From a virus, in the IMG/VR virus record IMGVR_UViG_3300031140_000045, positions 1 to 23,737 of that record: a stretch of DNA of 23,737 nt. One strand, 5' to 3'. A model generated the notes under the pieces. That model saw only the letters and a list, made by a program, of their open reading frames with translations. It did no database searches and was not told where the DNA came from. This document shows, in pieces, positions 9,726 to 14,042 of this stretch (positions within the stretch are counted from its first letter, which is position 1; every line of letters starts with the position of its first letter). The position numbers and the translations under genes are program-made.

Positions 9726-12700
9726 ATGGCAGGAACATTTTTAGGAAAATACGACACAACATCAGCAAATAATACAACTACAGGAACTAATTCAGTTTCA
9801 GTTGCAGAAGGAATGTTGCCTTCCAACATCAATAATGCTTTTAGAAGTGTTATGGCAGATATTAGACAGCACTATAATGATGCTGAATGGATTGAATATG
9901 GAGATGGAGCAGGTACTTATACACCTACTTATGTATCTTCTACAAGTTTTACAATAGATGGAGTTGATGTAACAACTCCTTATCATGTTGGACGTAGAAT
10001 TAAAGTTGTGGCAACTACGCCAGGAACTATTTACGGATCAATTACAGCAACAGCATTTTCAACAAATACAACAGTAACAGTAGCATGGGATTCAGGATCT
10101 TTATCTAATGAAGCTATTACAAGTGTTTATCTTGGTGTTTTATCTAAGACAAATTCTTCTATACCTTTAGTAGTTATTGGAACTGGAAATGTAGCAGATG
10201 ATGCAATTACAGCTGCAAAAATGGCAGTTAATTCTGTAGATTCAGATTCATACGTAGACGCTAGTATTGACTTAGCTCATATGAGTGTAAACAGTATTGA
10301 TAGTGATCAGTATGTAGATGCATCAATAGACACAGCACATTTAGCAGCAGATGTAATTACTGGAGCTAAAATAGCAGATGATGCTATTGATAGTGAACAT
10401 TATACAGATGCAAGTATAGATCTTGCACACATGAGTGTAAATTCTATAGACTCAGATCAATACGTTGATGGCTCAATAGATGTAGCTCACATGTCAGCAG
10501 ACTCAGTTGATTCAGCACAATATGTTGATGGTTCAATAGATAATGCACACATAGCTGATGATGCTATTGACAGCGAACATTATGCTGCTGGTAGTATTGA
10601 TACAGCTCACATAGCTGACGTTAATGTAACTCTTGCAAAACTTGCAACTAGTTCAGTTAACTCATCTAAAATTGTAGATGATTCAATTGTTAATGCAGAT
10701 ATTAATTCAAGTGCTGCAATAGATGCAACTAAGATTGCAAATGGTACAGTAACAAGTGCAGAATTCCAATATATTAATACTTTGAGCTCTAATGCTCAAA
10801 CACAAATAAATACAAAAGCAGCTACAACTTATGTTGATGAAGCAGTTGCAGGACTAAGAACTAGAATAGTTGTAGAAGCAACATCAACAGCAAACGTAGT
10901 TATAGCAAGTGCTCTAGAAGCAGGAGACGCTATTGATGGTGTAACTTTAGTAGCTGGAGATCAAGTTTTACTTAAAGATCAATCTACTGCTAGTCAAAAT
11001 GGTATATATACAGCAGTTGGTAGTGGTGCAGGAGCTGCATCTAGATCAACTGAATATAATACTATAGATGAAATTTCTGGTCAAATGGTTGTTGCTAATC
11101 AAGGAACAGCTAATGATAATACTATATGGCTTTGTACTACAAACAGTAGTGCTTCTCTTGGCTCAGATTCAATTACATTTACAAAAATTACTCCATCAAA
11201 TTCAGGAACAGTTACATCTATTATTGCTGGAACTGGTTTATCTGGTGGTACTATTACAGGATCTGGAACAATTGCAATTGATACAGCTACGACTGTGGAT
11301 AAAACAACATCACAAACTTTAACAAACAAAACTTTAACAACTCCAGTAATAACTTCTATATCAAATAGTGGAACTGTTACTATACCATCTGGAGCAGATA
11401 CTTTAGTTGGAAAAGCTACTACTGATACCTTTACAAATAAAACATTAGATTTAGGTGGAACTGGTAATAGTTTAACAGGTTCATTAGCAGAATTTAATAC
11501 TGCTTTACAAAGTGATAGTTTTACTTCTTTAACAGGAACTGAAACACTTACAAACAAAACTTTAACTTCACCAAAAATAAATGAAGATGTAGCAGTAACT
11601 TCTACTGCAACAGAACTAAATTTATTAGATGGTGTTAGTGGATTAGTACAAGGTGATTTAACTAAACTTGCAGCAGTAGATGCTTCGGCAGCAGAAATAG
11701 ATACATTAGATGCTTTAAGTAGAGGAAGTATTATTTATGGTAATGCTAGTGCAGCCACAGCAATTTTAACTAAAGGTAGTGCTACTCAAGTATTAACTTC
11801 AGATGGTACAGATATTTCTTGGAGTGATGCAGCTGGTGGTGGATTAGATTGGCAAACAATCGTAACTGGTTCAACTTTAACAGCAGTTGCTGGTAGAGCA
11901 TATTGGATTAACACAACATCTAATGCTTGTACTATAACTTTACCTAGTTCAGCTAGTAATGGCGACCAAATTATCTTTGCTGACTTTGCAAGAAATTGGG
12001 GAACTAATTCTGTTACACTAGATTCAAATGGATTAAATTATCAAGGTGAAGATGATTCAAATAATTTCATATATTCAACATCAGGTGAAACAGTTAATAT
12101 TGTTTATTCAGGAGCAACTAATGGTTGGATTCCTTTAGATGATGATGCTGTAGCATTTGTTGGCCCACCACCATCAACTCAAAAATCTATTATGGCTTTT
12201 GGTGATAGTGCTGGTGCAGGCAAATCAAATTTAGTTAACAGTTCTGGAGTAATTGCAGCAGATATTAATGGTGTAGGAACACAAAGATATGGAGTAGATG
12301 CTGCTTCATATGGTGGGGACAAAGGTCTTTACGCATTTGGCAGACCAAGTGGTTATGTAAATACTAGAAATTTAATTTCTAATCAAGGTGTAATTGCTTC
12401 TGATGCTACTGGTGCTGGTGCTGCTAGAGCCTATTTGTCTGGAACTCAATATGGTACAGACACAGCAATTTTTGCTTTTGGTAATACTGGTTCTGGTTAT
12501 GTAAATAATTATAATTTAGTTAATAACACAGGTGTGGTCGCTTCTGATACATCTGGCTCTGGTACTATAAGGTCTGGTGCTGGTTCAGTACCTTATGGTG
12601 GAGATAAAGCTATGTACGCATATGGTTATAGTGGAAGTTATCTTAATAGTAAGGCTTTAGTTTCTAATCAAGGTGTTGTTGCTTCAAATTCTACTGGTGT

Positions 12701-13049
12701 AGGAACGGCTAGAGTTTATATGAGTGGTTCTGGTTATGATGGTGGAGATAAAGGTATTTTCGCATTTGGAGATAATAATAACAGTATGATAGGTGTAACA
12801 AATTTAGTTTCAAATACTGGTTCATTAGCTAGTGATACTAGTGCCGTAGGTACTGCTAGATATGGAGTTTATTGTAGTCAATATGGTGGAGATAAAGCAA
12901 TCTTTGCGTATGGTTATACTAATGCTGGTGCTGGTGCATTAAATATGAAAAATTTAGTTAATAGTTCTGGTGTTATGGCTTCTGATGCGACAGGTGTCGG
13001 TTCAGTTAGAGCAAATGGTGGAGCATGTGGATTCTCACAATCAGCATAA
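9726..13049 (+). CDS. Tail fibre / receptor-binding protein with repeat stalk and repeat tip
   Basis: A 1107-residue, Thr/Ser/Ala-rich fibre. Residues 1-155 form a probable particle-attachment region (MAGTFLGKYDTTSANN; NAFRSVMADIRQHYNDAEW). Residues 158-338 are acidic repeats built on units such as DDAIDSEHY and SIDLAHM. Residues about 377-485 resemble a common fibre domain (DGVTLVAGDQVLLKDQSTAS, then QNGIY). About 530-615 has three TNKTL motifs, then TATELNLLDG, all frequent in phage tail fibres. Residues 817-1107 are six tandem repeats forming the likely receptor-binding tip. The start at 9726 is set by AGGGAG; an in-frame TTG eight codons earlier lacks a site. No intramolecular-chaperone or peptidase motif is visible at the C terminus. 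The two genes after it may help assemble or cap it. Confidence 0.85.
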   Translation: MAGTFLGKYDTTSANNTTTGTNSVSVAEGMLPSNINNAFRSVMADIRQHYNDAEWIEYGDGAGTYTPTYVSSTSFTIDGVDVTTPYHVGRRIKVVATTPGTIYGSITATAFSTNTTVTVAWDSGSLSNEAITSVYLGVLSKTNSSIPLVVIGTGNVADDAITAAKMAVNSVDSDSYVDASIDLAHMSVNSIDSDQYVDASIDTAHLAADVITGAKIADDAIDSEHYTDASIDLAHMSVNSIDSDQYVDGSIDVAHMSADSVDSAQYVDGSIDNAHIADDAIDSEHYAAGSIDTAHIADVNVTLAKLATSSVNSSKIVDDSIVNADINSSAAIDATKIANGTVTSAEFQYINTLSSNAQTQINTKAATTYVDEAVAGLRTRIVVEATSTANVVIASALEAGDAIDGVTLVAGDQVLLKDQSTASQNGIYTAVGSGAGAASRSTEYNTIDEISGQMVVANQGTANDNTIWLCTTNSSASLGSDSITFTKITPSNSGTVTSIIAGTGLSGGTITGSGTIAIDTATTVDKTTSQTLTNKTLTTPVITSISNSGTVTIPSGADTLVGKATTDTFTNKTLDLGGTGNSLTGSLAEFNTALQSDSFTSLTGTETLTNKTLTSPKINEDVAVTSTATELNLLDGVSGLVQGDLTKLAAVDASAAEIDTLDALSRGSIIYGNASAATAILTKGSATQVLTSDGTDISWSDAAGGGLDWQTIVTGSTLTAVAGRAYWINTTSNACTITLPSSASNGDQIIFADFARNWGTNSVTLDSNGLNYQGEDDSNNFIYSTSGETVNIVYSGATNGWIPLDDDAVAFVGPPPSTQKSIMAFGDSAGAGKSNLVNSSGVIAADINGVGTQRYGVDAASYGGDKGLYAFGRPSGYVNTRNLISNQGVIASDATGAGAARAYLSGTQYGTDTAIFAFGNTGSGYVNNYNLVNNTGVVASDTSGSGTIRSGAGSVPYGGDKAMYAYGYSGSYLNSKALVSNQGVVASNSTGVGTARVYMSGSGYDGGDKGIFAFGDNNNSMIGVTNLVSNTGSLASDTSAVGTARYGVYCSQYGGDKAIFAYGYTNAGAGALNMKNLVNSSGVMASDATGVGSVRANGGACGFSQSA
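10197..10739 (+). repeat. Degenerate peptide repeats in the fibre stalk
   Basis: Fibre residues 158-338 repeat units of about 15-17 residues with the consensus IDS-x-x-Y-x-D-x-SID-x-AH. DDAIDSEHY occurs at about 10375 and 10555. A 20-residue unit starting ASIDLAHMSVN occurs twice without change, at 10260-10319 and 10410-10469. The DNA copies have diverged strongly at synonymous positions. The regular acidic spacing fits a trimeric beta-helix or coiled stalk. Confidence 0.75.
12174..13046 (+). repeat. Six tandem repeats of about 47 residues at the fibre tip
   Basis: Units begin at 12174, 12309, 12450, 12594, 12735 and 12882 (lengths 45, 47, 48, 47, 49 and 55 codons). The consensus is YGGDKaIFAFGyt, a variable loop, NLVsNxGVVASDxtGvGtaR, then a variable end. 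The alternation of a short aromatic/Gly strand with conserved turns resembles blades of a beta-propeller. Conserved cores with variable connecting loops suit a receptor-binding head. The fold is inference. Confidence 0.75.
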
Positions 13050-13072: not shown

Positions 13073-13678
13073 ATGGCTTCAAAACTTAATTCAGAATTTA
13101 ATTATCGTTACCAAGTAATAGGAGATACTCCTTGGGAAAAATTAAAAACATTAAAAGGTTTTTTAGAAGGTAGAGTTGATGCAGCTAAACTTGAACAATT
13201 TGGTATTTTAAAACACAAAATTAAAGTTTCAAAGCTAAAACATTTTAAAGAAAATAAAGGTTTAGAATATGAAATTTTAGAACTTGAACTTGAAGTATTA
13301 GAACAAGAAGCTACTTTTCAAACTGCTAAAGAGGCATATGAACTTAATAGAATAGAAATTAAAACTTTAGAAAAACTATTAAAAGAACTCTATGTGATTG
13401 CAGAACCTACAAGAATTAAAGGTTATACAGATGAAGAAATGTTTGAAGCTAATGCTGCAAATGAATTTACTGTAAGTATTGGTAGAGAGATACAAGCTGA
13501 AATGATTGCTAATGGCAGACCATCACCAGCTAAATTAAAAAATGCTATGAGTAATCCTCATACTTGGAACGCATTAAAAAAAATAGGATTAGTACCTAAA
13601 GAAACAAAAATACTTATGGGTAATATTGATCCAACATTAAAAATAGAACTTAAAGGAGTTGAAGATGAAATTATATAG
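13073..13678 (+). CDS. Conserved marine-phage protein after the fibre, unknown function
   Basis: A 201-residue protein with ATAGGAAA before its ATG. The N-terminal block (NSEFNYRYQVIGDTPWEKLK, then TLKGFLEGR) looks familiar from hypothetical proteins of marine podoviruses. The middle (residues about 55-105) is Glu/Lys/Leu-rich and probably coiled coil (ELELEVLEQEATFQTAKEAY). The C-terminal part includes NAMSNPHTWNALKKIGL. No enzyme motif is visible. Its position immediately after the fibre gene suggests a fibre-associated or fibre-assembly role, as for many genes in this slot; that is inference from context only. Confidence 0.6.
   Translation: MASKLNSEFNYRYQVIGDTPWEKLKTLKGFLEGRVDAAKLEQFGILKHKIKVSKLKHFKENKGLEYEILELELEVLEQEATFQTAKEAYELNRIEIKTLEKLLKELYVIAEPTRIKGYTDEEMFEANAANEFTVSIGREIQAEMIANGRPSPAKLKNAMSNPHTWNALKKIGLVPKETKILMGNIDPTLKIELKGVEDEII
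13652..13658 (+). promoter_or_regulatory. Ribosome binding site deciding the 125-residue protein start
   Basis: AAAGGAG sits six bases before the ATG at 13665, which is ideal spacing. The in-frame TTG at 13659 directly abuts the site and cannot be the start. Confidence 0.65.
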
Positions 13679-14042
13679 AATTGAATCGTCTGCATGTGGT
13701 AGTTTTTTTGGCACACCAGAGGATACTATAAAACCAGATAGAACAGATTGCACAATAATAGCACAAACACCAAGTAATGATGGTTATTTGTTTTTGTGTA
13801 AAGATTCACAAACTGCACAAACTGGTTTAACTTTATTAAGTACAGTACCATCTGGATTTGATTTTACTTACTGTCAAGAATGGGGTCTAATAATTAATGA
13901 TGCTGTTGTTGCAAGAGTGATATTAGATTTAAGAAAAAAATCTTACAATACTTGGGAAAGTCAGTTAGAAGAAATTTATGATCATGGAATAGATAATTGG
14001 AAAATAAGACTTACACAAGTTAAAGCAGATATTCCTAAATAG
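13665..14042 (+). CDS. Unknown protein in the fibre-adjacent pair
   Basis: A 125-residue protein whose start lies in the end of the previous gene (14-base overlap) with a strong AAAGGAG site. Visible patterns are an opening YRIESSACGSFFGTPEDTIK, then CTIIAQTPSNDGYLFLCKD, then VPSGFDFTYCQEWGLIIND and a helical Trp-containing end (SQLEEIYDHGIDNWKIRL). Four Cys are present (C10, C28, C44, C69), not in a zinc-like arrangement. I do not recognise a family with a known function. The paired arrangement with the 201-residue gene after the fibre suggests a shared role in fibre maturation or particle assembly, which is inference. Confidence 0.55.
   Translation: MKLYRIESSACGSFFGTPEDTIKPDRTDCTIIAQTPSNDGYLFLCKDSQTAQTGLTLLSTVPSGFDFTYCQEWGLIINDAVVARVILDLRKKSYNTWESQLEEIYDHGIDNWKIRLTQVKADIPK

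Follow-up and report, generated by a model that had tools for sequence, protein, structure and literature searches.

Beta-propellers are known from the (putative) host-recognition devices of several phages: the receptor-binding protein of phi11 and P2 of PRD1 have five blades, and gp131C of PhiKZ has seven (PMC4901313, PMC7048315). In jumbo phages, a kelch-type propeller protein, CBB_552, is part of the virion (PMC5259590). Kelch propellers, such as those of KLHL12, KLHL20, Keap1, and the designed SAKe6, have six blades and tandem repeats of about 44-56 residues; the C-terminal strand closes blade 1, and the B-C and D-A loops form the ligand face (PMC6720452, PMC6650413).

Here, we describe a phage tail fibre whose tip is predicted to share with kelch the six blades in the same register and the C-terminal strand that closes blade 1, and whose repeats of 46-50 residues fit the kelch range. 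Its blade number differs from those of phi11, PRD1, and PhiKZ. Moreover, the phi11 propeller lies in the middle of the protein and is closed by an N-terminal strand, whereas the one described here is C-terminal and would be closed by a C-terminal strand. The preliminary description of this DNA had called a propeller at a fibre tip an unusual adhesin design. This holds only in part: jumbo phages have kelch proteins (PMC5259590), and the receptor-binding proteins of phi11, PRD1, and PhiKZ were already known to contain propellers (PMC4901313).

The window –the whole stretch of 23,737 nucleotides analysed– carries a tail fibre gene of 1107 aa, from 9726 (ATG) to 13049 (stop), on the plus strand, as are the fibre parts and the companion gene described below. 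The N-terminus and shaft (9726-11834) can be read directly from the sequence and match tail-fibre families of PHROG (892, 13518, and 28766); this part presents the low-complexity repeats DSxxYVDxSIDxAH and LTNKTLTSP. Residues 28-496 of the fibre are 37% identical to gp54 of Pelagibacter phage HTVC106P, and the portal protein is 53.6% identical to the one of that phage. On these two matches, the window likely belongs to a SAR11-type podovirus. Between the shaft and the propeller lies a beta domain of about 110 aa (11835-12164), which we modelled jointly with the tip and which is found in 62 of the 184 six-blade relatives.

The preliminary description had reported six tandem repeats in the last 291 residues of the fibre, with a span of 12174-13046. 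The six repeats were confirmed, with 46-50 residues each, and it is only the start that changes, as the first repeat begins at 12186. The motifs quoted at the time are also present: YGGDK, [AIF/GLY/AMY]A[FY]G, NLV[SN]N, and [VI]AS[DN]xTGxG[TS]xR. From the repeat positions and the AlphaFold2 model, we placed the six units at 12186-12323, 12324-12464, 12465-12608, 12609-12752, 12753-12896, and 12897-13046 (46, 47, 48, 48, 48, and 50 residues, respectively), with their first strands at tip residues 5, 51, 98, 146, 194, and 242. The sequence repeats are circularly offset relative to the structural blades: repeat 1 holds strands B, C, and D of blade 1 together with strand A of blade 2, and the closing strand lies at the end of repeat 6.

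When compared to shuffled sequence, the self-similarity of the tip peaked when it was shifted by 95 residues (z 8.3) and by 48 (z 6.9). A repeat HMM found exactly six units in the window tip, and likewise in nearly all its relatives. At the DNA level, Tandem Repeats Finder retrieved only trivial units of 6-9 bases from the tip stretch, so the repeats of the window copy are old. Its blades share a mean identity of 44% among themselves.

At the structural level, AlphaFold2 was run on the tip with the window sequence and 110 relatives (111 sequences), and it returned a mean pLDDT of 95.6 and a pTM of 0.92, with all five models in agreement. In the PDB, every top Foldseek match was either a kelch domain or a designed ring of the kelch type (best E 8e-16). 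With VIA-align, the best match was SAKe6BC (Z 32.8, 272/281 residues, 2.4 A), and KLHL20, KLHL17, and Keap1 presented Z values of about 32. Model residues 8-292 aligned with residues 326-609 of Keap1, from first strand to last, and residues 8-294 with residues 318-601 of KLHL20. In the sequence, the first strand of the array is strand B of blade 1 and the last is an unpaired strand A (model residues 288-292, 13020-13034), which, from DSSP and the Keap1 and KLHL20 alignments, would be the innermost strand of blade 1. Since the aligned ranges begin and end together, the ring would be closed as in KLHL20, in which the C-terminal strand takes the strand A position in blade 1 (PMC6720452).

A kelch blade has four antiparallel strands; in the tip model, DSSP assigned three regular strands to each blade and only isolated bridges to the outer strand. 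The joint model of the pre-tip domain and the tip presented the same propeller strand pattern (pLDDT of 85.3 for the best model, and 60-68 for the others). As a prediction, the closed six-bladed propeller is near certain. The six-bladed ring had been a guess in the preliminary description, and it is now supported by a confident model, by the kelch match, and by relatives with six blades or multiples of six; the extended non-closed fold named there as the refuting outcome was not seen in the AlphaFold2 prediction.

In IMG/VR, we found 470 candidate places for the tip with a four-member profile and 336 with one relative as the query, and we fetched at most the best 80 relatives per query (e.g., the best 80 of 470). 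The nearest two distinct tips among the matches listed, L008 and L009, are 62-66% identical to the window tip. In bacteria and archaea, with one genome per species and 84,980 species, only one locus harbors a relative. We applied the repeat HMM to all ORFs of the loci fetched. Among 199 non-redundant complete ORFs, it counted six units in 190, 12 in two, and 18 in two, with two, three, or five in the remaining five; as the loci had been ordered by how closely they matched a query with six repeats, a count of six may be overrepresented. The array was C-terminal in all 199 ORFs, ending 0-9 residues before the stop. Larger ORFs (12, 18, and 30 repeats) consist of blocks of six with a step of 66-191 residues between blocks. 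From these sequences, the blade number appears to be locked at six or its multiples.

It is hardly conceivable to us that the array stays open and extended, as a beta solenoid or helix, instead of closing into a ring. Repeats of such size could form solenoids, and Pfam recognises no propeller family here; however, the closed model is confident, the kelch match covers the full length, and an open solenoid is not expected to hold its count at six or to form separate blocks of six.

Several propellers can be strung on one protein, as seen on single ORFs with 12, 18, or 30 blades (L163 2181-10865, L158, and L043). In rare cases, an ORF has three or five blades that closely resemble each other (L014 5913-6731, L095 7752-8528, and L207 2599-3978); these are possibly collapsed assemblies, or real smaller rings or oligomers. 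Propeller genes also occur in tandem, for example at L084 3879-9666: 45 of the 72 loci of at least 9.5 kb, some of which overlap, have two to five consecutive ones with a median gap of 13 bases. Moreover, some relatives present their tips fused to N-termini common to other phage tail fibres. The 54-residue N-terminus at L004 3200-3361 (MTLPASGxLTFGQINTELG) is common to cultured-phage proteins with other tips, an FG-GAP protein of Vibrio phage nt-1 among them.

At the sequence level, searches of the tip against Pfam, NCBIfam, PHROG, and the PDB (phmmer) retrieved nothing above chance. No kelch model was among the 25 Pfam families matched by most of the 111 members, and none was found for the window. 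A kelch repeat has a diglycine after strand B, and conserved Tyr and Trp residues. The tip is 11-18% identical to kelch proteins in the alignments and lacks both the GG doublet and the blade Trp; in its family, columns 4-6 read G/A-Y/F-G, and the core columns are essentially devoid of Trp. The kelch proteins of phage CBB are recognised by InterPro kelch models, unlike the tip family. The kelch protein of BcepSaruman matches the tip model (E 8e-14) with only 16% identity. Since these sequence marks of kelch are missing despite the kelch-like fold, we do not file the tip under the kelch family proper: it is kelch-like by fold and not a member by sequence. Uncharacterised proteins of uncultured Caudovirales, such as A0A6J7XFV6 (45% identity, TM 0.93), belong to the same family as the tip. 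Scattered Pfam matches, such as Peripla_BP_4 (38 of the 111 members, best 3.9e-5), were rejected as low-complexity hits that disagree with the predicted fold.

When we searched all PDB sequences with a profile of the 111 tips, only six gave matches below E 1, all of them PLL/PHL-type lectins of Photorhabdus (best E 2.9e-7), whose repeats align in phase with the tip profile over four to five blades. The propeller could be a glycan binder that shares its descent with these seven-bladed lectins, with sugar sites between the blades, as in PHL (PMC5584973), and not on one face. We consider this unlikely. The single-stretch E-values are only 4.6e-4 and 0.03, and Gly/Ala-rich repeats can inflate a profile score; besides, the tip has six blades versus seven, its core is essentially without Trp whereas the sugar sites of PHL are Trp-lined (PMC5584973), and the best structural match is kelch. 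None of the 50 matches listed by VIA-align was a PLL lectin, which we did not count against the lectin reading.

To return to the kelch-like ring, its variation is concentrated on one side. In the alignment of 1104 repeats from 184 proteins (48 columns), the core is nearly fixed (AIFGYG...TNLVSNTGVVATDTTGVGTAR..LAAAGYGGDK), and the variable columns are 7-15 and 37-38. Mean entropy reached 2.83 bits in the B-C loop and 3.62 bits at D-A positions 37-38, compared to about 0.84 bits elsewhere; the conserved turns presented 0.97 bits (C-D) and 0.82 bits (A-B). Variable loops around a conserved core had been proposed before, and the entropies sustain this proposal and sharpen it to the B-C loop and positions 37-38. 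The comparison of loops and cores among relatives, also suggested then, found the loops clearly more variable. The pN/pS ratio was 0.81 in the variable columns vs. 0.16 in the core columns, which is no proof of positive selection in the loops because synonymous sites are saturated.

With the antiparallel topology of the blades, one face of the ring carries the B-C and D-A loops, and the other the A-B and C-D turns. In K13, conservation is highest at the B-C and D-A positions (PMC6650413), whereas in the tip family these include the most variable ones. From the strand topology and the kelch structures, we infer that both chain ends sit on the conserved face formed by the A-B and C-D turns; thus, the variable face should point outward, and it probably grips the host cell.

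One could also think that the ring caps or stabilises the fibre structurally and makes no contact with a receptor, because propellers can be structural parts and the conserved face could act as an interface for assembly. This seems quite improbable to us: the hypervariability is one-sided, and Tyr (19.5%), Ser, Asn, and Gly are frequent at the four positions that vary most, which fits recognition and not a cap. The C-terminal position and the presence of several different paralogues in one phage also fit recognition better. As for the source of the variation, we dropped the idea that the tip is the target of a diversity-generating retroelement, since no reverse transcriptase (RVT_1) was detected above the cut-off in the window or in 26 related contigs, which may be fragments.

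Regarding the evolution of the blades, those within one protein present a mean identity of 67% (protein means from 36 to 84%). Between proteins, blades with the same number are 62% identical vs. 61% for blades with different numbers, so they are interchangeable at the family level. In the window and its nearest relatives, the blade order is mostly kept. After searching all pairs, we found seven near-identical blade pairs off register vs. 137 in register; the clearest case involves L030 (blade 5) and L096 (blade 4), with 99% DNA identity between the two blades. Judging from these pairs, blade exchange does occur, yet it is not the rule among close pairs. New propellers are known to arise, to this day, by the amplification of single blades (PMC9218822). 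A near-identical contig, L002 (99.8% over 12.9 kb), concentrates 24 of its 25 differences in the region where the pre-tip domain begins (~11750-12250). This is as expected for an exchange of the tip module, or it could be an assembly join.

The fibre gene is followed after 23 bases by a companion gene of 201 aa (13073-13678), which we propose as a chaperone or assembly factor of the propeller on the basis of its conservation and its linkage. Its relatives are located directly behind propeller ORFs in 89 of the 145 loci with room for them (median distance of 4 bases) and anywhere in the locus in 123 of 173. With the companion as the only query in IMG/VR, 56 of the 57 distinct copies listed have a propeller ORF immediately upstream, and for the 57th it is one gene away. 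Among 23 diverse copies, the identity to the window copy ranges from 49 to 77%. The next gene, of 127 aa (13659-14042), presents a weak match to the second domain of Mtd (E 0.048), below the cut-off.

Fibre chaperones are proteins of ~20 kDa whose gene typically comes right after that of the fibre, and gp27 of Alteromonas phage V22 (~22 kDa), directly downstream of a receptor-binding fibre, is one of them (PMC7289586). Since its size and position fit such chaperones, the companion is, by analogy, most likely a dedicated chaperone of the propeller. It had no match in Pfam, NCBIfam, or the PDB, and only weak and scattered ones in PHROG, and in those family searches it resembled no known fibre chaperone (Tfa, gp38, or gp27). 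With the tip as the query, tblastn and blastn retrieved nothing useful from 50,697 phage records, and their low-complexity filter may mask a Gly-rich query. For this reason, absence from the phage records was judged on the companion, which had no match at E 1e-3 in them or in plasmid records; unlike in size and position, it thus presents no recognisable relationship to V22 gp27.

The bacterial copy belongs to an Oligoflexia MAG (L173 4743-6549), where a propeller of six blades, preceded by a Tat-like leader (SRRKFF...), is followed by a companion without an evident signal sequence; gene names and leader were read off the translations. The pair is flanked by a polyamine-type ABC transporter operon on one side and metK/lepA on the other, and no companion was found in the other genomes of that phylum among the 291 drawn. 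Tat exports folded proteins, so the folding of the propeller in the cytoplasm with the aid of the companion would make sense. Bdellovibrio recognises its prey via phage-like fibre tips (PMC10769870), which is a possible parallel to the Oligoflexia pair.

These data also bear on a second reading of the companion, as a virion component (an adapter or tip partner) and not a chaperone, which we retain as a serious, if minority, possibility. The near-obligate linkage to the propeller fits a bound partner equally well, and Tfa of Mu and the gp38 adhesins remain on the fibre (PMC7289586). Nevertheless, the companion is far more conserved than the variable face of the adhesin, and the bacterial pair, with a Tat-like signal on the propeller and none evident on the companion, fits work in the cytoplasm.

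Altogether, we think it probable that the tip is a receptor-binding ring of six blades with an outward variable face and a dedicated helper gene. The fibre would end in a closed six-bladed kelch-like ring, anchored to the shaft by its conserved face, with the A-B and C-D turns and both termini. The hypervariable face, with six B-C and six D-A loops, would be directed off the virion and bind a receptor on the host surface. Blades would be altered or swapped while the ring is kept at six, and the 201-aa companion would fold or assemble the propeller as a dedicated helper, most likely a chaperone.

Finally, hundreds of phage contigs bear this tip (470 candidate places in one scan), for which there is no family model. 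Its companion gene marks it almost perfectly. The likely receptor-contact positions –the B-C loops and positions 37-38– can be read from the sequence and would give a handle on host recognition by uncultured phages; the six-fold, one-face design resembles a natural library of binding scaffolds. In a broader view, which we regard as evenly balanced, these tips may represent an adhesin system, so far unrecognised, of phages that are mostly uncultured: a six-blade ring that closes on itself, has one face free to vary and one fixed, and evolves through changes in its loops and swaps of blades while strictly kept at six. The system would have its own chaperone, sometimes several rings per protein, and would once have been captured, as a unit of two genes, by a bacterium that may export the ring as an adhesin.
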